From assembly GCA_023101885.1 (NCBI GenBank), contig JALPQD010000390.1, positions 1,103,257 through 1,167,256 of the forward strand: a DNA stretch of 64,000 bases, read 5' to 3'. Positions 9,798-48,960 of the stretch are shown here, in pieces; the stretch's first letter is position 1, and each line of letters begins with the position of its first letter. Source of the stretch: Typhlomys cinereus (taxonomy: Eukaryota > Chordata > Mammalia > Rodentia > Platacanthomyidae). Under the pieces are notes generated by a model. That model searched no databases, was not told the DNA's origin, and was given only the letters and a program-made list of their open reading frames with translations. Position numbers and translations under genes: made by a program.

Positions 9798-12700
9798 CTA
9801 GGAGCCACCTATTAGGGAGTACATACGGCGCTTAACTTTCTGGGATTGGGATACTTCACTTAATATAATTGTTTCTAATGACATCCATTTCCCAGCAAAC
9901 TCCAGTAATTCATCATTTTTGATGGCTGAGTAGTACTCCATTGTATAGATGTACCACATTTCCTTATCCACTCGTCAACTGTTGGACATTTAGGTTGATT
10001 CCATGACTTTGCTATTGTAAACAGTGCTGCTATGAACATAGTCGTGCTGGTGCTATCGAGGCGAACCTCTGCTGCATGGGGGGTTATTCCCAAAAGTGGA
10101 ATAGCAGGGTCATATGGCATTTCAATCTTTAATTTCTTTAAGAATCTCCAGACACCTCGCCAGAGTGGCTGTATGAGTCTGCATTCCCACCAGCAATGTA
10201 GCAGGGTTCCCCTCCCTCCACATCCTCTCCAGCACTTGTTGTTGTTTGTATTGTGGATTTTTGCCATCCTGACCGGGGTGAGATGGTATCTCAGGGAAGT
10301 TTTGATTTGCATTTCCCTGATAGCTAAAGAAATGGAGCATTTTTTAAGATGTTTGTTAGACATTTTAATTTCATCTCTGGTAAAATTTCTTTTAAGTTCC
10401 AGGGCCCATTTTTTAATTGGGCCATTGGTTTCCTTGGTGTTTAATTTTCTAAGTTCTTTGTGCACTCTGGACAGTAGAGCTCTATCAGATATGTGGTTAG
10501 TGAAGATTTTCTCCCATTCTGTGGGTTGCCTTTGAGCTCGTGTGATAATCTCTTTATCTAAACAGAAGCTCTTTAATTTCACAAGATCCCAACTGTTGAG
10601 AGTTGGTAGCAGTGACTGTGCCATTGGATGTCTGTTTAGGAACTGTTGGCCTAGTCCAATCAGCTCGAGGGAGTTCCCTATCCTTTCAACTATGGTTATT
10701 ATAGTCTCTGGCCTGATATCAAGGTCCTTGATCCATTTGGAATTAAGTCTTGTACATGGTGACAAGTATGGGTCCAGCTTTAATCTTCTGCATGTGGAGA
10801 TCCAGTTTTGCCAGCACCATTTGTTGAAGATACTGTTCTTTTTCATTGGATTCTTTGGGCCCCTTTGTCAAAGAACAAATGGCTGTATTTTTGTGGGCTT
10901 ATATCTGGGTCCTCAACCCTTATCCATTGGTCTGTGTGTCTATTTTGGAGCCAGTACCAGGCTGTTTTTATAACTATGGATTTGTAGTATAGACTAAGGT
11001 TCGGTATGGTAATACCTCCAGCAGTGTTTTTGTTACTCAGGATTGTCTTTGCTATTCTGGGTCTTTTGTGCCTCCATATGAATTTTGAGATTAATTGGTC
11101 AACTTCTTTAAAGAATTGCTTTGGGATTTTAATTGGTATAGCACTGAATTTGTATATTGCCTTAGGTAGGATGGTCATTTTTACGATGTTGATTCTGCCA
11201 ATCCAGCAACATGGGAGGTCTTTCCACCTTCTGATGTCTTCAGCAATTTCTTTCTTTAGGGTTTTAAAGTTTTCATTGTAAAGGTCTTTTACCTCCTTGG
11301 TTAGGTTTATACCAAGGTATTTCATTTTTTTTAGGGGCTACAGTAAATGGGATTGTTTCTCTGAAGGCTTTTTCACTTCTTTCATTCTGGGCATATAGGA
11401 AGGCCTCTGATTTTTGCACATTTATTTTGTATCCTGCCACCCTGCTGAACTTCTCAATTAGTTCCAGGAGCTTCCTGGTGGAGTTTTTGGGATCCCTCAG
11501 GTATAAGATCATGTCATCTGCAAATAGGGATAGCTTGACTTCTTCCTTGCCGATTTGAATCCCTTTTATGTCCCTTTCTTGTCTTATGGCTTCAGCTAAG
11601 ACTTCAAGTACAATATTGAATAGAAGTGGTGAGAGTGGACAGCCTTGTCTAGTTCCTGATCGAAGTGGGAATGCTTCCAATTATTCCCCATTGAGCATAA
11701 TCCTTGCTGTGGGCTTGTTGTATACAGCTTTTATTATATTGATAAAGGTTCCTTCCATTCCTACTGTCTCTAGCGTTTTGATCATAAAAGGCTGTTGGAT
11801 CTTATCAAAGGCTTTTTCTGCGTCTATCGAGAGTATCATGCGGTCTTGGACTTTGGACTGGTTTACATGATGAATTACATTTATTGATTTGCGTATGTTG
11901 AACCAACCTTGCATGCCGGGGATGAAGCCTACTTGGTCACTGTGAATGATCTTTTTGATATGTTTTTGAATCCGATTTGCTAAGACTTTGTTGAGAATCT
12001 TTGCGTCTGTGTTCATCAGGGAGATCGGCCTATAGTTTTCTTTTTTAAGTGAATCTTTATTAGGTTTTGGGATTAAGACGATATTAGCTTCATAGAAGGA
12101 ATTTGGTAGTGTTCCTTCCTTTGCTATTTGATGGAACAGTTTAAGGAGTATTAGTGTTATTGACTCCTTAAATGTCTGGTAGAATTCTGTGCTGAATCCA
12201 TCTGGTCCAGGACATTTTTTGGTGGGAAGATTCGAGATTACTTCTTCAATTTCCTTATATGTTATAGGGCCAGTTAAGTAATTAACAACTTCCTGATCCA
12301 ATTTAGGTAAGATATGTTTACTTAGAAATTCATCCATCTCTTCTGTGTTGTCAAACTTCACTGAGTATAAGTTTTTGAAATATGGTGTTATAATTCTCTG
12401 GATTTCTTGGGTATCAGTAGTGATTACTCCATGTTCATTTCTAATTTTGTTAATTTGGGTTTTCTCTCTCTTGCTTTTGGTTAATTTAGCTAGGGGTGTA
12501 TCTATCTTATTGATTTTTTCAAAGAACCAGCTTTTTGACTGGTTGATTTTTTCTATCGTTTTCTTAGTCTCAATTTCAGATATTTCTCCCCTTATTTTGC
12601 TAATCTCCTCTCTTCTACTACTTTTGGGATCAGATTGCTCAAGTTTCTCTAAAGCCTTAAGCTGCATTGTTAAGTTATTTATTTCTGATGTTTCCATTTT

Positions 12701-13621
12701 TTTGATGTAGGCATTAAGAGCTATGAACTTACCTCTTAGGACAGCTTTCATTGTGTCCCAGAGATTTTGGTAAGTTGTATTTTCGTTATCGTTCACTTTC
12801 AGGAAATCTTGAATTTCCTTTTTAATTTCTTCCTGAATCCAGTTCTCATTCAGCATCATATTGTTAAGTTTCCTGGAGTTAGTGTATTTTCTCTTGTTTG
12901 TTGTGTTGTGGATGTCCAGCTTTAGGCCATGGTGGTCTGACAGAGCACAGGTTAGAATTTCAACTTTTTTGTATATGTGTAGATTCGTTTTGTGGCCCAA
13001 TATGTGATCTATTTTGGAAAAAGTTCCGTGTGCTGCTGAGAAAAATGTGTATTCTTTTGTGCGTGGGTGAAAAGTTCGATAAAAATCTGTAAGGTCCATT
13101 TCTTTAAGGGTTTGATTAAGTTCCAAAGTGTCTCTGTTAAGCTTTTGACCTGTTGATCTATCCCATGTTGACAGGGTGGTGTTGAAGTCCCCAAGAATTA
13201 TCGTTTGGGGGTTGGTATCTTGTTTTAGGCGCTGTAGGGTTTTCTTAATGAATGTGGAGGGCCCCGTATTGGGTGCATAAATGTTCAGGATTGTGAAGTC
13301 TTCCTGCTGAATTGTACCTGTGACTAAAATGTAGTATCCATCTGTGTCTCTTATGATTTTCTTTGGTTTGAAGTCCACTTTGTCTGATAGCATAATTGCT
13401 ACCCCTGCCTGTTTCCTGGTTCCATTAGCTTGTAAGATTTTGGACCAGCCTTTCATTCTTAGGATGTGCCTATCTTTTGTGGTGAGATGAGTTTCCTGAA
13501 GGCAGCAGATTGTTGGATTGTGGTTTTTAATCCAAGTTTGTAATCTATGTCTCTTAATCGGTGAATTAATCCCATTGACATTTAATGTTATAATGGAGAA
13601 ATTGTGTTTAATTCTGGACAT
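9798..13621 (-). pseudogene. L1 ORF2 (endonuclease-reverse transcriptase), broken
   Basis: About 1275 codons, the usual L1 ORF2 length. In order: an apurinic-type endonuclease domain from the start at 13621 (early motifs NVNGI and QETHL), a linker, a reverse transcriptase with the catalytic FADD motif near 11.5 kb, and a cysteine-rich C-terminal region near 10.2 kb. Breaks visible: an in-frame TAA at 11681-11683 where relatives have lysine; one extra A in the A8 run (plus-strand T8 at 11325-11332), shifting the frame; a one-base loss near 10845; and another near 9960 in a short A run. The first 646 codons (11681-13621) are open and cover the endonuclease and the start of the reverse transcriptase. 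Confidence 0.9.
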
Positions 13622-13678
13622 TTTTTATGTTTAGTAGATTTTGTAAGCATGTTGTTTGATATTTATGTTTCAGTGGTA

Positions 13679-14743
13679 TTATACTTCCCTTCTGCCCTCC
13701 TGGATACGCTTGTTCTTTTCTTCAAGCTTGAGTATCAGTTCTAGGATTTTTTGAAGGCCTGGTTTGGTAGACATGTATCCCTTCAAGTTGTCTTTGTGTT
13801 GGAAAACTTTTCTTTCTCCCTCAATCATGACAGATAGTTTTGCCAGGTATATCAGTCTGGCTTGGCATTTTTGCTCATTTAATACTTGAAGTATATCTCT
13901 CCAAGCTCTTCTTGCTTTTACTGTTTCCATTGAGTAGTCATTTGTTATTCTAATAGGTTTACCTTTAAAAGTGAGTTGCTTTTTTTCTCTTGAAGCTCTC
14001 AGCACCTTTTCTTTGTCTTGAATGTGGAGTGTTTTGACTATTATTTGCCGTGGCGATTTTCTATTTTGGTCGTATCTGTTTGGAGTGCGAAATGCCTCTT
14101 GTATTTGGATAGGCCTCTCATTCTTTAATTGTGGGAAGTTTTCATTTATGATGAGTTGAAATATTTCCTCAGGTGTGGTATTTTGGGATTCTTGTTCTGG
14201 TATTCCATGAATGCGCATGTTAGGCTTCTTCAGGGTGTCCCACATCTCTTGAATGTTCCTCTCAAGTATCTTTTTGGCTTTAACAATCTCTTCCATTGAG
14301 CTGGTTAATTCTCCCACTTTGTCTTCAAGATCTGAAATTCTATTTTCTGCCTCATTTGTTCTGCTGATAAGACTCTCTGTTGAGTTTTGGGTTGAAGATA
14401 ACTTGTCTTTTAGTTCAATTTTAAACTCTGCCTGAGACTGTTTCAATTGCTCCATACCTATTTTTGTTTCTTGAACTGTTTTTCTCAACTCCTCCAAGTG
14501 CCTGTTGTGTTCCTCTTCAAAGTGGTTGATTCGATTGTTTATCTCTTCTCGGATTTCCTTTGTCATAGTATTAATCATGGTAAGAATCATACTCTGAAAG
14601 TCGTTATGTTGGGTCTGGCTTTCATGGCGATTTTCTGTGGATTTGTTCTGATCGGAATCTCTTATTATGGGATTGATTCTTTCGGCAGAAGATTGGTCTT
14701 CTTGGGTTTTGTTTCTCGTGGATCTGCACTTTGACTTGTACAT
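13679..14743 (-). CDS. L1 ORF1 protein (RNA-binding chaperone), intact
   Basis: A 354-residue open frame, close to the usual rodent L1 ORF1p length. The family forms trimers that coat L1 RNA in the cytoplasm. Residues about 45-155 are rich in E, K, N and Q with heptad-like spacing, fitting the trimeric coiled coil. The central RNA-recognition fold follows (motif MRIHGIPEQE at about 180-190), then the C-terminal domain with a basic stretch near 245-275 and RAWRDIL. No stop or frameshift is present. It lies 57 bp upstream of the ORF2 start, as expected for the bicistronic L1 RNA. The intact frame beside a dead ORF2 is a sign of youth, not proof of function. Confidence 0.9.
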   Translation of the reverse strand: MYKSKCRSTRNKTQEDQSSAERINPIIRDSDQNKSTENRHESQTQHNDFQSMILTMINTMTKEIREEINNRINHFEEEHNRHLEELRKTVQETKIGMEQLKQSQAEFKIELKDKLSSTQNSTESLISRTNEAENRISDLEDKVGELTSSMEEIVKAKKILERNIQEMWDTLKKPNMRIHGIPEQESQNTTPEEIFQLIINENFPQLKNERPIQIQEAFRTPNRYDQNRKSPRQIIVKTLHIQDKEKVLRASREKKQLTFKGKPIRITNDYSMETVKARRAWRDILQVLNEQKCQARLIYLAKLSVMIEGERKVFQHKDNLKGYMSTKPGLQKILELILKLEEKNKRIQEGRREV

Positions 14744-33238: not shown

Positions 33239-33849
33239 AGTGAAGTATCCCAGACACAGATAGTTAGACATGTATGTACTACCTAATGTGTGGATCCTAA
33301 TTCCAAACATACTTAATGACATATTCAAAAGTAAATCTCTGTAATACCCACTGTAATCACAAAGGATTATAAACAGGAGGGAAGGGGAAGTAGGACATTA
33401 AAAGAAACAAGATAGGGGATCATGCTTCAGTAGAGAAAACTGGCATGTAAGTAGCAAGACATCTGCTGCAGCTCACTCTCACTTCCCTTCCAGGTCACTT
33501 GGACTGAAGAGGTTTGATCCCACAATCAGGGAGGGTTTAGGGACTGGCAGATAGATGGTAACCATCCTGCAAATGGGACACTGACACCCCTCCCACCTGC
33601 TGTGTCCTACTCCTATTCTTCCATCTACCTTTGAGTCTCCTCTTATATTAAGATCCTCGTTTAAAGAGTCTTTTGTCTTTGGTTAGGAGGTGACTTTCGG
33701 TACCAATCTGGATGCAGCTAAGGGCAGTGCAAGAAAAGCAAAATTGTAAACAACAAACCATAATTCAGAACAGAACACAATCTTAGAAGAGGGGCCAACA
33801 AGATTGTAACAGCCTAAAGATGGGGAGGACCAACTATATATATTCAAGA
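33239..33849 (+). mobile_element. L1 ORF2 tail and 3' UTR, plus orientation
   Basis: Starts in the last codons of ORF2 (GAAGTATCCCAGACACAG, complement of the same place in other copies) and runs through the 3' UTR to the ERV insertion at 33849/33850. The remainder continues at 39877. The last four bases, AAGA, form the left ERV target duplication. Confidence 0.88.
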
Positions 33850-34241
33850 TGTGGAACCCAGGTTCCCGCTGTGAAGCCCAAGTTCCCGCCGGCGCAAAAT
33901 TCAAATCTCCCACCGGCGCCAAACTCTCCCGCCGGCGCCAACTCACTGCATGCCGGGAACTGCCCAGGGCAAGGTTATCGGCCAGAACATCTGTAAACTG
34001 ACTCAACTTCCTTGTGTATAGTGAAAATATTTACAGAATGTATTTGCTCAAGGCAGTTGCTTTTCCTATAAAAACCTTGCCCCAAATTCAGTCGGGGCCG
34101 TTCTCCTATGCCTGAGCAGGGAGGCGGTCCTAGCTAGCTAGATTAATAAATCTTGCCTCATGCCTTTACAGCAACCCAGCGGTTCTCGTGTCTCCTTCGG
34201 GGATCTGGGTAAGGGGCCCAAAGGGAACTTCGGTTCCAACA
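33850..34241 (+). repeat. 5' LTR of the provirus
   Basis: TGTGGAACCC...TTCCAACA, 392 bp. U3 carries three GC-rich direct repeats (33877-33943). TATAAAA is at 34067-34073 and the polyadenylation signal AATAAA at 34145-34150, so U3-R-U5 order is normal and transcription should start near 34095-34100. The single difference from the 3' LTR is A against G in TTGCCTC(A/G)TGCC, near 34160. Confidence 0.96.
33877..33943 (+). promoter_or_regulatory. Triple GC-rich motif in U3 (E2F-like)
   Basis: TTCCCGCCGGCGCAAAA, then TCCCACCGGCGCCAAA, then TCCCGCCGGCGCCAAC, spaced about 22-24 bp. The first contains TTCCCGCC, the core of E2F sites. The repeat is shared by both LTRs. Function is inferred. Confidence 0.6.
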
Positions 34242-34243
34242 TA

Positions 34244-34261
34244 TGGGGGCTCGTCCGGGAT
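34244..34261 (+). promoter_or_regulatory. Primer binding site, tRNA-Pro type
   Basis: TGGGGGCTCGTCCGGGAT, two bases after the LTR end. This is the 18-nt site known from gammaretroviruses primed by tRNA-Pro, and it appears undamaged. Confidence 0.93.
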
Positions 34262-34301
34262 GCCCCTGACCCAACTCGGAGGAGCCGACGACCAGGGTTG
34301 G

Positions 34302-34309
34302 AGGTAAGT
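34302..34309 (+). promoter_or_regulatory. Likely major splice donor in the leader
   Basis: GAG|GTAAGT at 34301-34309 is a near-ideal 5' splice site 43 bases after the primer binding site, where gammaretroviruses place theirs. Three further GTAAGC sites open the repeat units at 34436, 34557 and 34681. Confidence 0.65.
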
Positions 34310-34435
34310 GGAGCTCCTGAATTGTCTTGTGTCTTGTGCATTGTGCATTGTGTATTGTGTCTGTGTTCTCTCGTGTCAGTTTCTTCTCCGGGCGTGGACA
34401 GACGTGTCCGCGACCTCGCGGGGGGCAGCAGGGGG

Positions 34436-34798
34436 TAAGCCGCAGTTGGATGGTATTCCCAACTAGGCTCAGTTGGACGGTATTCCCAGCTGAACTCCCC
34501 CGTAAGGCTTGGGCAATTGGACGGTATTCCCAATTGAACCCAACCCTGTCGACGGGGTAAGCCGCAGTTGAATGGTATTCCCAACTAGGCTCAGTTGGAC
34601 GGTATTCCCAGCTGAACTCCCCCGTAAGGCTTGGGCAATTGGACGGTATTCCCAATTGAACCCAACCCTGTCGACAGGGGGTAAGCCGCAGTTGGATGGT
34701 ATTCCCAACTAGGTTCAGTTGGACGGTATTCCCAGCTGAACTCCCCCATAAGGCTTGGGCAATTGGACGGTATTCCCAATTGTGCCCAACCCTGTTCG
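34436..34798 (+). repeat. Leader tandem repeat: 3 units, 9 hairpins
   Basis: Three units of about 121-124 bp begin at 34436, 34557 and 34681. Each unit holds three hairpins with a shared 9-nt loop A(C/T)GGTATTC. Positions: 34444-34464, 34470-34492, 34514-34536; 34566-34586, 34592-34614, 34636-34658; 34690-34710, 34716-34738, 34760-34782. Stems are AGTTGG/CCAACT, CAGTTGG/CCAGCTG (one G-U) and CAATTGG/CCAATTG, so pairing is kept while bases change. The first stem of unit 2 has one lost pair (GTTGA). The place, between primer site and gag, is where gammaretroviral packaging and dimer signals lie. Confidence 0.93.
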
Positions 34799-35013
34799 GT
34801 AAGCTGCAGCAGTCGGAGAAGGAGGGCATACCCGGGGCAGCGGGTCTCCGAACTCCTCTGTTGCCGGCTTCTTTTACTTTCACTTTCTTCCCGGGAGAGA
34901 AGCCGCTCGAGCGAGCGCTTAAGGACCGGGTGCTGCAAATATTTGTTGGGTTCGTCTTTGTGTCATTCTCTGTGTTTCTGGGGTATTTCTGTGTTCAAGA
35001 AATTCAATATATA
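34696..35013 (+). CDS. Glyco-Gag-like leader extension, in frame with mini-Gag
   Basis: 106 codons from an ATG inside the first hairpin of repeat unit 3, open and in frame with the mini-Gag that starts at 35014. Residues about 79-100 form an uninterrupted hydrophobic segment just before the Gag methionine, preceded by a basic/acidic stretch (LERALKDR). Gammaretroviral glycosylated Gag has the same layout: leader-encoded N-terminus, one membrane anchor, then Gag, entered from an upstream often non-AUG start. The frame could also be entered by a start I cannot identify. The sequence is not recognisably conserved. The interpretation rests on position, phase and hydrophobicity. Confidence 0.55.
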
Positions 35014-35325
35014 ATGGGACAGACTCGATCAACACCCCTTGACTTGATTATCAACTATCGGACGGACGTTAGGGAAGGAAGGAATGAACGGAGGCTTACT
35101 CAAATCCTGGCTATAATAGTACAGGACAAGCAGGACGGGCAAAACAGGCAAGAGAGAAAGGGATACCTGAACAATAAAGGTGACAAGAGAGCTGACCGAG
35201 ACCAATGCCGCTATTGTAGAGAAAAGGGGCATTGGGCAAGGGACTGCCCCAAGAAGCCCCCATTCCACAAACGCCTGCCAGGTAACTCCTCTCGAGTGCT
35301 AACCCTGGGGGAAGAATCTGACTAG
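35014..35325 (+). CDS. Mini-Gag: matrix start fused to nucleocapsid zinc knuckle
   Basis: A 103-residue frame. It opens MGQT, with glycine 2 the expected myristoylation site of gammaretroviral matrix, keeps about 20 matrix-like residues, and then passes into a basic, glutamine-rich nucleocapsid with one CCHC knuckle, C65-x2-C68-x4-H73-x4-C78 (CRYCREKGHWARDC). The C-terminal part of matrix, p12 and the whole capsid are absent, joined in frame. Normal gammaretroviral Gag is over 500 residues, so this cannot build a particle. It could still bind RNA and, if myristoylated, membranes. The open frame in a young element is expected whether or not it is used. Confidence 0.85.
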   Translation: MGQTRSTPLDLIINYRTDVREGRNERRLTQILAIIVQDKQDGQNRQERKGYLNNKGDKRADRDQCRYCREKGHWARDCPKKPPFHKRLPGNSSRVLTLGEESD

Positions 35326-37699
35326 GGAAGACGGGGAACTGTCTGTCGTTTTTTTGTGCTGTGTTTATGATGATCTCATTTGAGTTACTTTGTTTAGTTA
35401 TCTGGGTTTTCCATAATAGGTGTGTTTTATGTTTCAAAATAACACAGCTATGGCCATTTCAAATTATTGCGCGCTTATGATTACATCTTGGTTTTTTTTT
35501 GACTTTTTATTATTTGGCATGCTCAATTTAAATGCACGTGCACACTTAAGAACAACATAAAAGGCCTGAGTACGTATTGATTAAAATATTTTGTTTTATC
35601 TTGATTTCTATGAAGCTTCACAAAAGATGATATTGTGTTTTTACCTAGGATCTAATAACATCACTTTTGTAATTCCTTTAAAAGTTTGTTTTTCCATATG
35701 TAATACCAACATATCTAGCAACCAAAAAGGAAAACTGATTTCTGAGAAATTCATTGGAATTTCTTCATTCTCCTGGTATGTATGCTAATTTCCTGTTTCC
35801 AGGTGTACTCCTGTGTTCTGTTACAATCTTGCTAACTTAATTGGGATATAATGATTTTTAAGATGAGGTCTACTGTTATTGCCTCTTTTAAAGGACATTT
35901 TTAAAGGGTAAACAACAGAAAACCATCAAGTATGAAAGAAAATATGTATGGTAGTTAGATGTGCAAGAGGTTCATGAGTTGGTTACTTAAAAAAAATGTT
36001 AAAGTATGTCATGAAGGTTTGTGGGATGTTAGAGTTATGAGAAGACTGAAAATAAGAGATGATGGTTAAAGAAAATATTATTTGTTATGTTTCTTCCATG
36101 TTATAAAACAAAAGATATTGAGCCTCAGAAATTAGAAATTAAGAATTAAGCTTCATGTATTCAAATGTATTTCAGTTGTCTGTTTAAAGCAGAAAATTGG
36201 TTACTTCTAAAATCCCAACTTCTCAAGGACAGTAGGAATCTTAACAGTGGGGTCATAAATGAGAAGTCTGAGACCAGGGCCCTCCCTGCCCCCAGGGAGG
36301 TGGCCAGCAGGAGAAACTGAGGCCCCGCCTCAGCTGCAGCTTGGAACAGACTCAAGGCCAACTAGGGAGTTTCTCTAAATCTTGGACTTTACGGTAAAAG
36401 AGAATGTGCTAAACCAACCCCTGCTCACCTTTTGGAGCAGGCCTCTCTTGGAGGGGGAGGAAAAGGGCACCTGCAAAATGGGGGAGGGAATGTTTTAACC
36501 TCTGTATGAATGTGTGAGTGAGTGTCGGCCTGAGGTGGGAAACCTGCAACACCTCTGTGCTCGAGTTTGTAGTCCCACGGCGAGATCCCTAAGATCTCTT
36601 AAAGCCACGGGATTCGATTGGGCCAGTTCTGCGTTTCCATGGTGATAAAATACGGTCTAGGGTGGGATCGGATTAGAATCCGATCGCAAGTCACGAAACC
36701 ACTGAACCCACTATGGCCAAGTTATCACCCATGACTCTGCAAAGAGTGTGGCCAGACTGGTACTTGAATGATCTCTCCTGGAGGGATTCCCAACCTTTGT
36801 CTGTCTGCGTCCTGGGTGGGGATCAATGTGACCCTAGCTCTTGGTCTACGTAGTACAGTGGGGATCAATGTAACTTTAGCTTTTGTTAGTCAATGGAAGG
36901 GAATTCCTAAAAATGTTTGCCCTGAAGGAAAGTGTTTCAAGTCTGAGACAATGACTATGCTGTTTAAATAGCATAGGGAATACAAGAAGCTTCAGGCATG
37001 TGTGGACCATGGACTCTCCCCTTTTAGTGTCATCGGGTGGGGCTCTGGTGGCGTTGGGTGGAGTGCTGGCCTCCCCGGACCACACCACGGGCAGTGTCAG
37101 TGGATGTCTTTGCTGACAACACTGTGTATAGTGATTATCAGAACTCTGCTAAGCCACGCGTCCTTTCCTCAAGTCCAGGTTCACTAATTGAAGCCAAAAG
37201 AGAGAGATTTCCCCTTCCTGTGTCCAGGGACTATCTAGAAATTGTGAATGCTTAGTTCTACCAACCTAAAAGAGGGTCAAGTCATAGCATATTCTCAGAC
37301 ATGCCCTGTATACATCTTAGACAAGAGATGATCCCAGGAAGATCTTTAAGTTATACTACCATCCAACTAGACAAACAAATGCCAGAAAGTTGAGAGACTA
37401 TAGAGCTGGACCAAAAGTACCAGCTAGTAACTCAGGAAGAGCTTTGCCTCCCAATGCCCTCAAGACTAAGGTGAAACAGACAGGAATTTCATTTAGCTTC
37501 CATGTCAGCCAAAGTCCTCATCTGTCAGGGGGAAGTAAACTCTCATGTGGAGGACAACAGGGCTCTCATCTGTTGAGGGAAATAGGTCCCCATCATCTGT
37601 AAGGGAGAGGTTGGCACCATCAGGAAGCTTTCATTTCTGTCTTGGAGGTAGAATCCTTTGTTTCTGTTTGTCCTAGGACTTTAAAAATAGGACAGGTGA
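35326..37699 (+). other. Provirus interior, non-coding, origin unclear
   Basis: After the mini-Gag the base composition becomes AT-rich (35340-36200), then GC-richer (36240-36760). Part of the latter, around 36480-36760 with GTGTGAGTGAGTGTCGGCCTG and a start-like ATGGCCAAGTTATCA at 36712, looks like a second retroviral leader and gag start from a different element. I see no intact frame. It may be VL30-like material, which I cannot confirm. Confidence 0.5.
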
Positions 37700-38230
37700 C
37701 CTAGGACTTAGTAAAAAAAAGAGAAAAGAAAGAGAAAGAACCAGAAAGCAAAGAAATCAGAACTTGACATTTGCCTTAGGGGATAGGTTAAACAGGCACC
37801 CCAAGCAGATCAACCCAGGACCCCTCCCGACAGGGGAAAGGTGGAAAAAGATGCTTCGAATATGACCAGACTGGGCGCTTTGAGACTGTTGTGAGCACAG
37901 GAAGCTTTCATGTGGCCTATGTCCCAACTATGGGAATTTCCACTGGAGGAAGATTGCCCCCTGAACCTCAGGGCCCAGGGATCGAGCGAGTTCTCTGGTG
38001 GAGACCAATGAAATGGCCTGAAGCTCTTAGCTTCCCTCCGATGGGAAAAAGGAGTTTGCCACTGATATCCAGCAAAAGGAGGCCCAAAAGTGCCAGGTTG
38101 AGCATCTCGTGAGAACCTTGGGTTTAACGTGCAAATGGGAAGCCTCTTTGTTTCTATGTTAATAGACAAGGGAGCACAAAATTCTAGTGCTCAACTTCCT
38201 TCCTAGGCTTTTGTCAACTTTTGATTTTAC
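37700..38230 (+). pseudogene. Degenerate gag-nucleocapsid/protease remnants
   Basis: Near 37845-37890 a reading gives RCFEYDQTGRF, a zinc-knuckle outline with later cysteine and histidine positions lost. Near 38130-38190 another gives a short hydrophobic stretch and IDKGAQNSS, matching the retroviral protease active-site outline (normally D-T-G) with the threonine replaced and a stop codon just before. Both are too decayed to act. They suggest a second, older retroviral source within the provirus. Confidence 0.45.
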
Positions 38231-38707
38231 TAAAATCAAGAAAATGACAGGCTCATTGCACTCACAAAGTAACTACTGAGATTCCTTATATGCTTAATAG
38301 TGATGCTTTTTAGGCATTCCTTTGTTTACATGCCTGAGTGCCCGAATATTCAAGGTTTAGGCTTAATAGAATAAAATATTTTAGCACTGTTATAAAATTG
38401 GTTTTAGACGCACAAAAGGTATTAGAAGAGAAAATCATGGATTACAGAAAATGCCAGATAGCATGTAACAAAAGTCTGCAGTTTAAAGACCCTAAATGCT
38501 GCATCCTTATCCAACCACTCTGATGGATAAGATTCCAACCTGATAAGATATTATTTCAAGGAAACATTTTCTGGAGAAAAGACATGGCTTTATCTAGGAA
38601 AAATAAATATAAAAATTGTCAGGTCTTGGTGTTTCTTCCCAGTTCAGGCCTAAAGCCTGTTCCCTGGGGAAGGTCACTGTAACCTGGCCACAGGGGTTTG
38701 GGCTCCA

Positions 38708-38955
38708 TGGTTGATGACCTCCTCTACTAGAGAGATTAAGAAAACTGGAGTGGTGTTTGACGCCAGCTTGTTCCTGCTGCTTTCCTTGTCAGTATTCAGC
38801 ATCGTGAGTGTGACAGCCTACATTGCCTTGGCCCTGCTCTCTGTGACTATCAGCTTTAGAAGGGTATGATCCAAGCAATCCAGGAATCAGATGAAGGCCA
38901 CCCATTCAGGGCATATTTGGATGAAAAGATGCTATCATAGGAGAAATTATTCTTT
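38708..38955 (+). pseudogene. Rtn4: RTN4 (reticulon-4) fragment captured inside the provirus
   Basis: Translating the plus strand gives pieces of the reticulon-homology domain of RTN4/Nogo, an ER-membrane-shaping protein: [44 protein letters not shown], and after a short deletion ESDEGHPFRAYL. Breaks: TAG where the protein has tryptophan (YWRD), a lost codon's worth of sequence at RDI, and a deletion after ISFR that shifts frame. From what I know of RTN4, similarity starts near the beginning of the 208-bp reticulon exon and continues across GHPFR|AYL into the next exon with no intron, so the source was probably spliced RNA. RTN4 fits better than RTN1 or RTN3. Confidence 0.85.
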
Positions 38956-39464
38956 TAATAATTATATTGCTTAAGCTCACGCAGGGACTTACCCACAGCA
39001 AGACTGCTGAGCTTGTTCGGTTTATCTCATGTGCCTTCCCAATTACAATGATCTGGTCCTTCTATGGATTCTGGAGACTCAATTTGCCTGTATTTTGTCT
39101 CTTTTAGACCAACCTTGAGGTAATAAAGCCATCTATCAGACCTCTAGACCAACCCAGCATTTCATAAATGAGAATGTCAGACTGCTCTTATTTCCTTTGC
39201 CCCGATTCAGCAGGAAGCAGCCAGATCGAATCACCGCCCTTTATCCCCAGAGCAGTCTGATTCTCATATAGGTTTATGGGAAAGTGAGGCAGGATTAGAG
39301 CAGCTATGCTGGGATGGGTCTCTCAAGGTCTTTAGAATTCTGAAGAGACGTCCTCTACTGCTGGAATCACCTGGAAGGAACACCCCTGCTGAGGAACTGA
39401 CTCCAATCCTCCCAGAAATTTACCACAAGAACTGTAACTGACACTCCATGATTGGAGTGTGCCT
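38956..39464 (+). other. Provirus 3' interior before the polypurine tract
   Basis: No intact frame. The part at about 39283-39424 (GTGAGGCAGGATTAGAGCAG onward) is clearly related to the complement of 48770-48915, where it lies just upstream of, or within, a different decayed LTR. It is therefore shared between two retroelements. Confidence 0.7.
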
Positions 39465-39480
39465 AAAGAAAAGGGGGGAA
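39465..39480 (+). promoter_or_regulatory. Polypurine tract
   Basis: AAAGAAAAGGGGGGAA directly abuts the 3' LTR at 39481. It is the expected second-strand primer of reverse transcription and is undamaged. Confidence 0.93.
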
Positions 39481-39872
39481 TGTGGAACCCAGGTTCCCGC
39501 TGTGAAGCCCAAGTTCCCGCCGGCGCAAAATTCAAATCTCCCACCGGCGCCAAACTCTCCCGCCGGCGCCAACTCACTGCATGCCGGGAACTGCCCAGGG
39601 CAAGGTTATCGGCCAGAACATCTGTAAACTGACTCAACTTCCTTGTGTATAGTGAAAATATTTACAGAATGTATTTGCTCAAGGCAGTTGCTTTTCCTAT
39701 AAAAACCTTGCCCCAAATTCAGTCGGGGCCGTTCTCCTATGCCTGAGCAGGGAGGCGGTCCTAGCTAGCTAGATTAATAAATCTTGCCTCGTGCCTTTAC
39801 AGCAACCCAGCGGTTCTCGTGTCTCCTTCGGGGATCTGGGTAAGGGGCCCAAAGGGAACTTCGGTTCCAACA
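39481..39872 (+). repeat. 3' LTR of the provirus
   Basis: 392 bp, TGTGGAACCC...TTCCAACA, differing from the 5' LTR at one base (G in TTGCCTCGTGCC). TATAAAA, AATAAA and the three GC-rich U3 motifs are all kept. It is followed by the right AAGA duplication. Confidence 0.96.
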
Positions 39873-39876
39873 AAGA

Positions 39877-48445: not shown

Positions 48446-48960
48446 TCTTTTGGTTGCCAAATGTTTTGGGAAACAGTCTCACCAAATGTTGCAACATCCC
48501 TGTTTGGGTGCCAAATGTTATAGGAATGACCATCCCAATGATGCAGGGTTCATTTGTTATGGAATTGAAGATTGAAACCAGAATATGTATAGAGGATTAA
48601 GATAGAGTTTATTAGAGAGAAAGGATAGAATTTATGGACTCCAGGTGTGGAGTACCATGAGGGGCTAGGGCTCCCTGGAAAACTCATGGAGCTAGAGGTC
48701 AAGTTGGTTGATTGATATGGAGAGTTCATCTACATAATCTTTTCATAGGGAAGTTGGTCATCTTATCTCTGGGAGGATTGAAGTCACTTCCCAGCAGGGA
48801 TGCTCCTTCAGGGAGATTCCCACAGTGGGGGATGACCTTCAGGAATTCTAAAGACCTTCAAAGACCTTAGAGACCCATCCCAGCATGGCTACTGTAATCC
48901 TGCCTCACTAGGAAAGCATTCTGTCAAGTATACTGGGTTAATAGCAGTTCCTCCCCAAGT
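48446..48960 (-). mobile_element. Decayed LTR with adjoining primer-site-like sequence
   Basis: On the minus strand the order is: GTGAGGCAGGATTACAGTAGCC (from 48915), a stretch related to 39283-39424 of the young provirus, an AATAAA signal (complement at 48606-48611), an LTR-like end AACA, and then TTTGGCACCCAAACAGGGA (complement near 48503-48521). The last resembles a tRNA-Lys3-type primer binding site in which two CpGs have decayed to CpA/TpG. No coding remains. Confidence 0.5.

Follow-up and report, generated by a model that had tools for sequence, protein, structure and literature searches.

The leader of a young, gammaretrovirus-like endogenous retrovirus in the rodent Typhlomys cinereus carries a tandem array of hairpins ahead of gag, and related copies in the same genome differ in how many units the array contains. 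We give about an even chance to the reading that this array is an accessory cis-acting packaging/dimer module, placed beside a canonical core and expanded by template switching. The element lies within a 64,000-nucleotide stretch of contig JALPQD010000390.1 (hereafter the window, to which all coordinates refer), in which a first-pass annotation had described nine hairpins with co-varying stems and proposed an amplified packaging or dimer signal. Our comparison of the window with its genomic relatives leads us likewise to infer a packaging/dimerisation role, on grounds of sequence.

The element is bounded by two LTRs of 392 bp each and flanked by the TSD AAGA, read directly at 33846-33849 and 39873-39876 (Table 1). 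The LTRs differ at 1 of 392 positions (position 34160), which bears out the earlier description of a young retroelement. The nucleocapsid knuckle of its gag remnant matches MLV nucleocapsid p10 (chain 1u6p, E 2.5e-11; 1U6P is given as MoMuLV NC in PMC7599994). No pol or env domain was found in the three forward frames of 35326-39479 at E up to 0.5. Further along the element, 38654-38866 gives a weak Reticulon match (PF02453, at E 1.8e-4 and 4.5e-5, neither reaching the Pfam cut-off) and no PDB match; by eye the likeness presumably continues as far as about 38975, interrupted by a frame shift and stops, and the piece seems to resemble captured host mRNA. The stretch 35400-36299 is AT-rich and CpG-poor (GC 0.29-0.35), in contrast with the leader. 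Elsewhere in the window, a reverse-strand fragment at 48765-48909 is 80% identical to the 3' internal end of the element (39283-39419) and is probably an older related ERV. Four of the eight window ORFs tested are olfactory receptors, and others are L1; L1-like ORFs at 11681-14743 on the reverse strand comprise one with an endonuclease and a partial RT domain and one with ORF1 domains.

Table 1. Positions of the element's features in the window, with the basis of each assignment or further detail.
Feature	Position	Strand	Basis or detail
5' LTR	33850..34241	+	1/392 differing from 3' LTR; TSD AAGA
Primer binding site (PBS) TGGGGGCTCGTCCGGGAT, 18 nt	34244..34261	+	single window match at up to 3 mismatches, 0.01 expected
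Splice-donor-like AG/GTAAGT	34302..34309	+	GTAAG census and sequence; predicted site
8-nt palindrome GGAGCTCC directly past donor, candidate dimer site	34310..34317	+	
Canonical-type GACG tetraloop hairpin, 8 bp, CGTGGACA-GACG-TGTCCGCG	34393..34412	+	
Array unit 1	34432..34553	+	loops 34450-34458, 34477-34485, 34521-34529
Near-palindrome CCCTGTCGACGGGG, unit 1/2 junction	34544..34557	+	dimer gain (34538-34564)
Array unit 2	34554..34677	+	loops 34572-34580, 34599-34607, 34643-34651; hairpin 1 closing pair broken
ORF continuing into gag, with hydrophobic stretch, glycoGag-like leader	34660..35013	+	shuffle test
Perfect 14-nt palindrome CCCTGTCGACAGGG, unit 2/3 junction	34666..34679	+	dimer gain
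Array unit 3	34678..34799	+	loops 34696-34704, 34723-34731, 34767-34775; middle stem extended
gag remnant ORF, 103 aa, MGQT start fused to CCHC nucleocapsid knuckle	35014..35325	+	
Polypurine tract ahead of 3' LTR	39465..39480	+	read directly
3' LTR	39481..39872	+	compared with 5' LTR

The array was first described as three units of about 122 bp, and it is indeed a tandem repeat of 3.0 copies with a period of 122 (34429-34795), the individual units measuring 122, 124 and 122 bp. The 11-nt loop word GGTATTCCCAA occurs six times in the window, always within the array, against 0.02 occurrences expected. Each unit had been credited with three hairpins of given stems and the shared loop A(C/T)GGTATTC. 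This holds for eight of the nine; in hairpin 1 of unit 2 the arm reads AGTTGA (G to A), which leaves a loop-closing A.C instead of a G-C pair. The extended middle stem of unit 3 has the ten pairs attributed to it, or 11 when one further G-U is counted. The hairpin-1 loops (34450, 34572 and 34696) all read AUGG, and the loops of hairpins 2 and 3 ACGG.

Folding of single units 1-3 gives z scores of -2.5, -2.3 and -2.0 on the forward strand and -2.1, -1.6 and -2.8 on the reverse strand; the values for the whole array (-4.4) and the leader (-3.3) are inflated by the repeats. The nine hairpins are not all stable in every fold. In a fold of the full leader eight of them form at mean pair probabilities of 0.69-0.97 and hairpin 2 of unit 1 does not (0.01); when pairing is restricted to spans of 80 nt, every one of the nine forms at 0.69-0.97, and in the array folded alone hairpin 3 drops to 0.13 in unit 1 and to 0.10 in unit 3. 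An antisense open frame runs over the LTR end and the array at 34158-34994 on the reverse strand (241 aa from GTG, 278 aa stop to stop), and we take it as a by-product of repeat composition.

We searched the genome (2.68 Gb, 1235 contigs) with the array and with the sequence that follows it, and took the best 40 of 328 candidates for the array query and the best 40 of 343 for the post-array query. These yielded 39 leader pieces around array matches (first batch) and 17 new ones around post-array matches (second batch), and the resulting 56 pieces together with the window make up the 57 copies considered here. Selection by score makes this a non-random sample, and because only the best-matching copies were taken, array-less relatives may exist among the remaining candidates. 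At least three hairpins are found in every one of these 57 best-scoring copies. The post-array query is blind to the array, and the best 40 of its 343 places all carry at least three hairpins; 17 of these places were new and 23 coincided with the first set or the window.

The variation in unit number that had been proposed as a check is plainly present, ranging from 1 to 7 units among the 52 main-type copies. Three copies have one unit, 12 have two, ten have two plus an extra hairpin match (the rearranged array of L078 is counted here), 19 have three, four have three plus one, two have four plus one, and single copies have five and seven. The other five copies (L086-L090) are divergent and have one module each, with 4, 3 (the fourth being decayed), 4, 5 and 4 detected hairpins, respectively. 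The first 40 copies fall into subfamily A (n=24, including the window) and subfamily B (n=16).

Some of these copies retain more of the coding region. Copy L059 contains the gammaretroviral Gag matrix (PF01140; Gag_MA, E 4.7e-43) together with RT (RVT_1) and RNase H pieces that are interrupted by stops, and a fuller matrix start is found in L059, L056 and L064, truncated by stops in the last two. On its LTRs and TSD, its Gag_MA and its single-knuckle NC, the family is a gammaretrovirus-like (class I) ERV. The array hairpins of these three copies are the same as those of the window (10 in L059, 13 in L056 and 7 in L064). The gag/pol-bearing lineage and the gag-deleted members thus have the module in common, and the former is a possible source of helpers.

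Near-identical copies of the window element occupy many genomic sites, and the window copy lacks a working gag/pol. The element is apparently non-autonomous and recently spread, with a VL30-like way of life. Among the 39 first-batch copies, 11 have a gag frame of at most 14 codons or one without a recognisable start. In nine of these 11, MGQT is followed by a stop; eight have three units and one, L070, has two, so that this truncation affects 8 of the 18 three-unit copies of subfamily A plus one two-unit copy. The second-batch copies L075 and L078 are likewise cut short after MGQT. Because the gag ORF ends at this point in these copies, coding does not drive their spread.

The leader that holds the array has a gammaretroviral layout of PBS, donor-like site, 8-nt palindrome, GACG hairpin, array and gag remnant after the 5' LTR. 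We take the PBS to be of the tRNA-Pro type. The placement of the array between PBS and gag, on which the packaging proposal was built, stands, the array being 3' of both the donor-like site and the GACG hairpin. The proposal had also pointed to the GACG within the GGACGG closing region, and this argument is not supported. No GACG word of the array forms a tetraloop: the six at array hairpins are each flanked by 0 pairs and that at the junction of units 1 and 2 by 2 pairs, and the word preceding the array (34287) has 0. GACG tetraloops inside the array are ruled out by this absent or short pairing.

Gammaretroviral leaders are described as having a pair of GACG tetraloop hairpins (PMC3265304, PMC5874298). 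The window leader has a single one, upstream of the array at 34393-34412, and two adjacent GACG-tetraloop hairpins were not found in the window. A GACG tetraloop hairpin of at least 8 bp arises in 0.12% of 5000 shuffles, and the hairpin is present in 38 of the 39 first-batch and 16 of the 17 second-batch pieces. Subfamily A has one GACG hairpin where it is found. Subfamily B, with 26 nt more ahead of the array, has two in 14 of its 16 copies, as do the divergent L086-L089. The second hairpin in B has the stem AAGGG/CCCTG in 14/16 copies (loop GACG in 12, AACG in 1 and GACA in 1) and AGGAC/GTCCG around GACG in 2/16, and three of four stem pairs differ on both sides between these types, in compensated fashion. 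The array has thus been added to a leader of canonical type, and the window's subfamily lacks the second canonical hairpin; in this subfamily the array may stand in for it. A search of the leader (34242-35013) against 4227 Rfam families at E up to 10, with no positive control, gave no match, and the element as a whole gave one unrelated sub-threshold archaeal match (36129-36297), taken as chance. A scan of 34242-35013 that allowed up to one mismatch did not turn up UCUG-UR-UCUG, the motif bound by MLV Gag.

The first-pass annotation read the stems as changing bases while keeping their pairing. Within the window this has little to rest on, because the nine hairpins amount to three stem types in near-identical units and offer one two-sided pair (G-C/A-U). 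The window's covariation score is reached by 37 of 500 shuffles and one such pair by 292 of 500, and a simple mutation simulation produces one or more compensated pairs in 4.0% of its runs. Across subfamilies the reading is upheld by two-sided changes, as in hairpin 2, which is CGGCTGG/CCAGCCG in L089 and CAGTTGG/CCAGCTG in the main family. We aligned 15 hairpins selected from the main family and from L086, L089 and L090. Omitted were L087 and L088, which nearly duplicate L086 (in L087 hairpin 4 is decayed), hairpin 4 of L090, the hairpin 5 repeated in L089, the L078 chimera, all private variants and three rarer forms of the main-family fourth hairpin (5/15 instances, all still paired). In this alignment 99% of cells are paired, and of the 7 stem pairs 3 have changed in both arms. 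None of 500 shuffles attains its covariation score, and 80 of the 500 contain three two-sided pairs. When the six distinct stems alone are used, pairing is as good in 39 of 5000 shuffles by column and in 94 of 5000 by arm. These shuffle figures are not probabilities, because only six distinct stems exist and the rows are related. The detected stems of L086-L090 stay paired although their loops differ.

Stem decay without compensation had been named as the observation that would speak against selection on structure. It is seen in 7 of 360 hairpin instances (40 copies) and not in the remainder, and the variants concerned occur in one copy each, except for a 1-nt deletion in hairpin 1 found in two. 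We further compared private with shared variants, counting substitutions only, leaving gaps out and handling the last 15 unit positions (the 'tail') separately. In the 136 units of 52 copies, that is with the five divergent copies left out, hairpins have 11 private and 2 shared substitutions and linkers 14 and 14 (Fisher p 0.045); in the 40-copy set the contrast has p 0.054, and p 0.41 when shared is taken as at least three copies. Seven substitutions fall in stems, of which five break a pair and are all private, one is private and keeps its pair, and one is shared and makes a pair; the stem-breaking deletion present in two copies is uncounted because the test takes substitutions only. These tests, modest singly, together favour constraint on the hairpins, or homogenisation. 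A structural constraint on the hairpins is moderately supported by this comparison.

Neutral expansion is the main rival to a packaging/dimer module. In such a by-product, hairpin-rich sequence would make RT jump, units would multiply and shrink with no effect on packaging, and the stems would be homogenised by copying. We consider this somewhat unlikely. It fits a unit number that changes 12 times, against a minimum of 6, on a weakly supported tree of 40 copies built from post-array pieces (25/37 inner branches open), and it fits the stem-breaking variants that survive in single copies, the one such deletion in two copies and the decayed fourth hairpin of L087. Loops are also uniform per element and different between elements, as homogenisation predicts, with a mean edit distance of 0.54 within elements (28 pairs) and 3.78 between them (108 pairs; four types). 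At oriented position ~943, L078 has a chimeric hairpin, still paired by way of a G-U, whose 5' arm is that of hairpin 1 and whose 3' arm is that of hairpin 3; exchange inside hairpins thus occurs, and it could homogenise loops. A pure by-product is harder to reconcile with the two-sided changes that preserve pairing at the same site of hairpin 2 in L089 and the main family, with the G-U pairs tolerated on the forward strand, and with hairpins retained in single-module copies that have no tandem unit repeat. Nor does it lead one to expect that unit 1 is better conserved between subfamilies than its flanks: identity between A and B, compared over 6 of the 24 copies in A and 5 of the 16 in B (11/40), is 98.5% in unit 1 and 94.1% and 94.8% in the leader before and after it, with about 68 gap columns before and 52 after.

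The loops are 9 nt long in the main family and 11 nt in L086-L090, where three main types occur. Selection for one shared partner is a bolder reading of their agreement within elements. It would make the array a multivalent packaging/dimer device in an arms race, with loops changing together to match a helper Gag or partner RNA and the stems serving as structure, in which a module has multiplied from 1 to 7 units and up to 21 hairpins; we regard this elaboration as rather doubtful. Loop-loop kissing was rejected, as self-pairing does not rise above that of shuffled loops for any of the 4 loop types, and no complementary partner site for the loops was found in the same piece (at most 6-nt complements). 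The best dimer candidates would be the palindromes at the unit junctions, for which modelling predicts a dimer gain of -16.5 kcal/mol each, the largest of ten segments (no shuffled control). Small gains of -5.9 and -7.0 kcal/mol are predicted for whole units, and a gain of -10.9 kcal/mol, again with no shuffled control, for the GGAGCTCC region past the donor (34296-34330).

The array could instead serve a different RNA function, such as nuclear export, translation control or splicing control, which we judge decidedly improbable. Repeated hairpins of uniform loop would suit a host RNA-binding protein. Of the seven GTAAG words that the leader contains, six fall within the array or on its 3' border, but the words other than the main donor have no AG ahead of GT. 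Each window hairpin-1 loop contains an AUG, and that of unit 3 (ATG at 34696) is in frame with gag, those of units 1 and 2 being out of frame. An open frame with a membrane stretch leads from unit 3 into gag; none of 5000 shuffles of 34663-35013 leaves a frame that is both open and as hydrophobic, and most of the 16 second-batch copies having a gag start possess a similar hydrophobic end. Against a role of this kind, the upstream frame is 118 codons in 16/23 first-batch A copies but at most 39 in 14/16 B copies, and the repeat does not maintain a frame. A coding function of the array is itself rejected on its spacing of 122 and 124 and on stops in all three frames. A role at the level of DNA, for instance as a palindrome bound by a transcription factor or repressor of the host, is very improbable: every hairpin is an inverted repeat in DNA and reverse-strand folding energies are similar to those of the forward strand, but the U-G pair of hairpin 2 is standard in forward-strand RNA and a mismatch in DNA or on the reverse strand, and the loops vary between subfamilies in length (9 or 11) and sequence.

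An accessory packaging/dimer module would have arisen as follows. A single module may be the ancestral state (the window's LTR pair is the only one dated), and units would be gained and lost through reverse-transcriptase template switching among near-identical hairpins. Intramolecular template switching is described as yielding duplications and deletions (PMC5086612). Several hairpins could give the RNA added contacts with Gag/NC or a partner RNA, and these extra contacts may help a non-coding element to compete for its relatives' particles.

Such a module resembles the gammaretroviral packaging signal, described with paired GACG hairpins SL-C/SL-D (Konings et al., 1992, via PMC5874298), in its site between the donor-like position and gag, in the palindrome after the donor, in the family's GACG hairpin(s) with compensated stems and in the MLV-like NC knuckle. 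It differs in adding a tandemly amplified module with 9- or 11-nt loops, in the single GACG hairpin of the window subfamily and in that UCUG-UR-UCUG was not found. The RD-114 leader, in the account given in PMC5874298, has several stem-loops beside its GACG hairpins and is similar in combining multiple stem-loops with such hairpins in one gammaretroviral leader; that account describes no tandem multi-hairpin unit, and the two are set apart by description alone. VL30 is described as non-autonomous and multi-copy, with RNA packaged into MLV virions (PMC4859993), and the window element is alike in the first two respects. The rat VL30 signal is given as a 68-bp purine-rich sequence (PMC4859993), and imperfect repeats are mentioned for VL30 dimer linkage (PMC516450). 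Compared by description alone, the array differs in that these sources, as far as they cover VL30, mention no hairpin array.

We found no description of a tandem, copy-number-variable multi-hairpin unit in an ERV leader in the parts of the open-licence literature consulted. In IMG/VR the loop word gave 26 contigs with one match each, taken as chance, and the PBS, the two-hairpin pattern and the gag remnant gave nothing relevant; the two-hairpin pattern likewise gave nothing relevant in prokaryote genomes.

The uniformity of loops within elements and their divergence between them is unusual and demands a mechanism. If the array is a by-product of copying, it is still a record of fast tandem change in a retroviral leader. 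If it is packaging-active, this genome holds a natural copy-number series of a retroviral packaging module that covers both gag/pol-bearing and gag-deleted members, and how parasitic retroelements win particle space would become directly testable.
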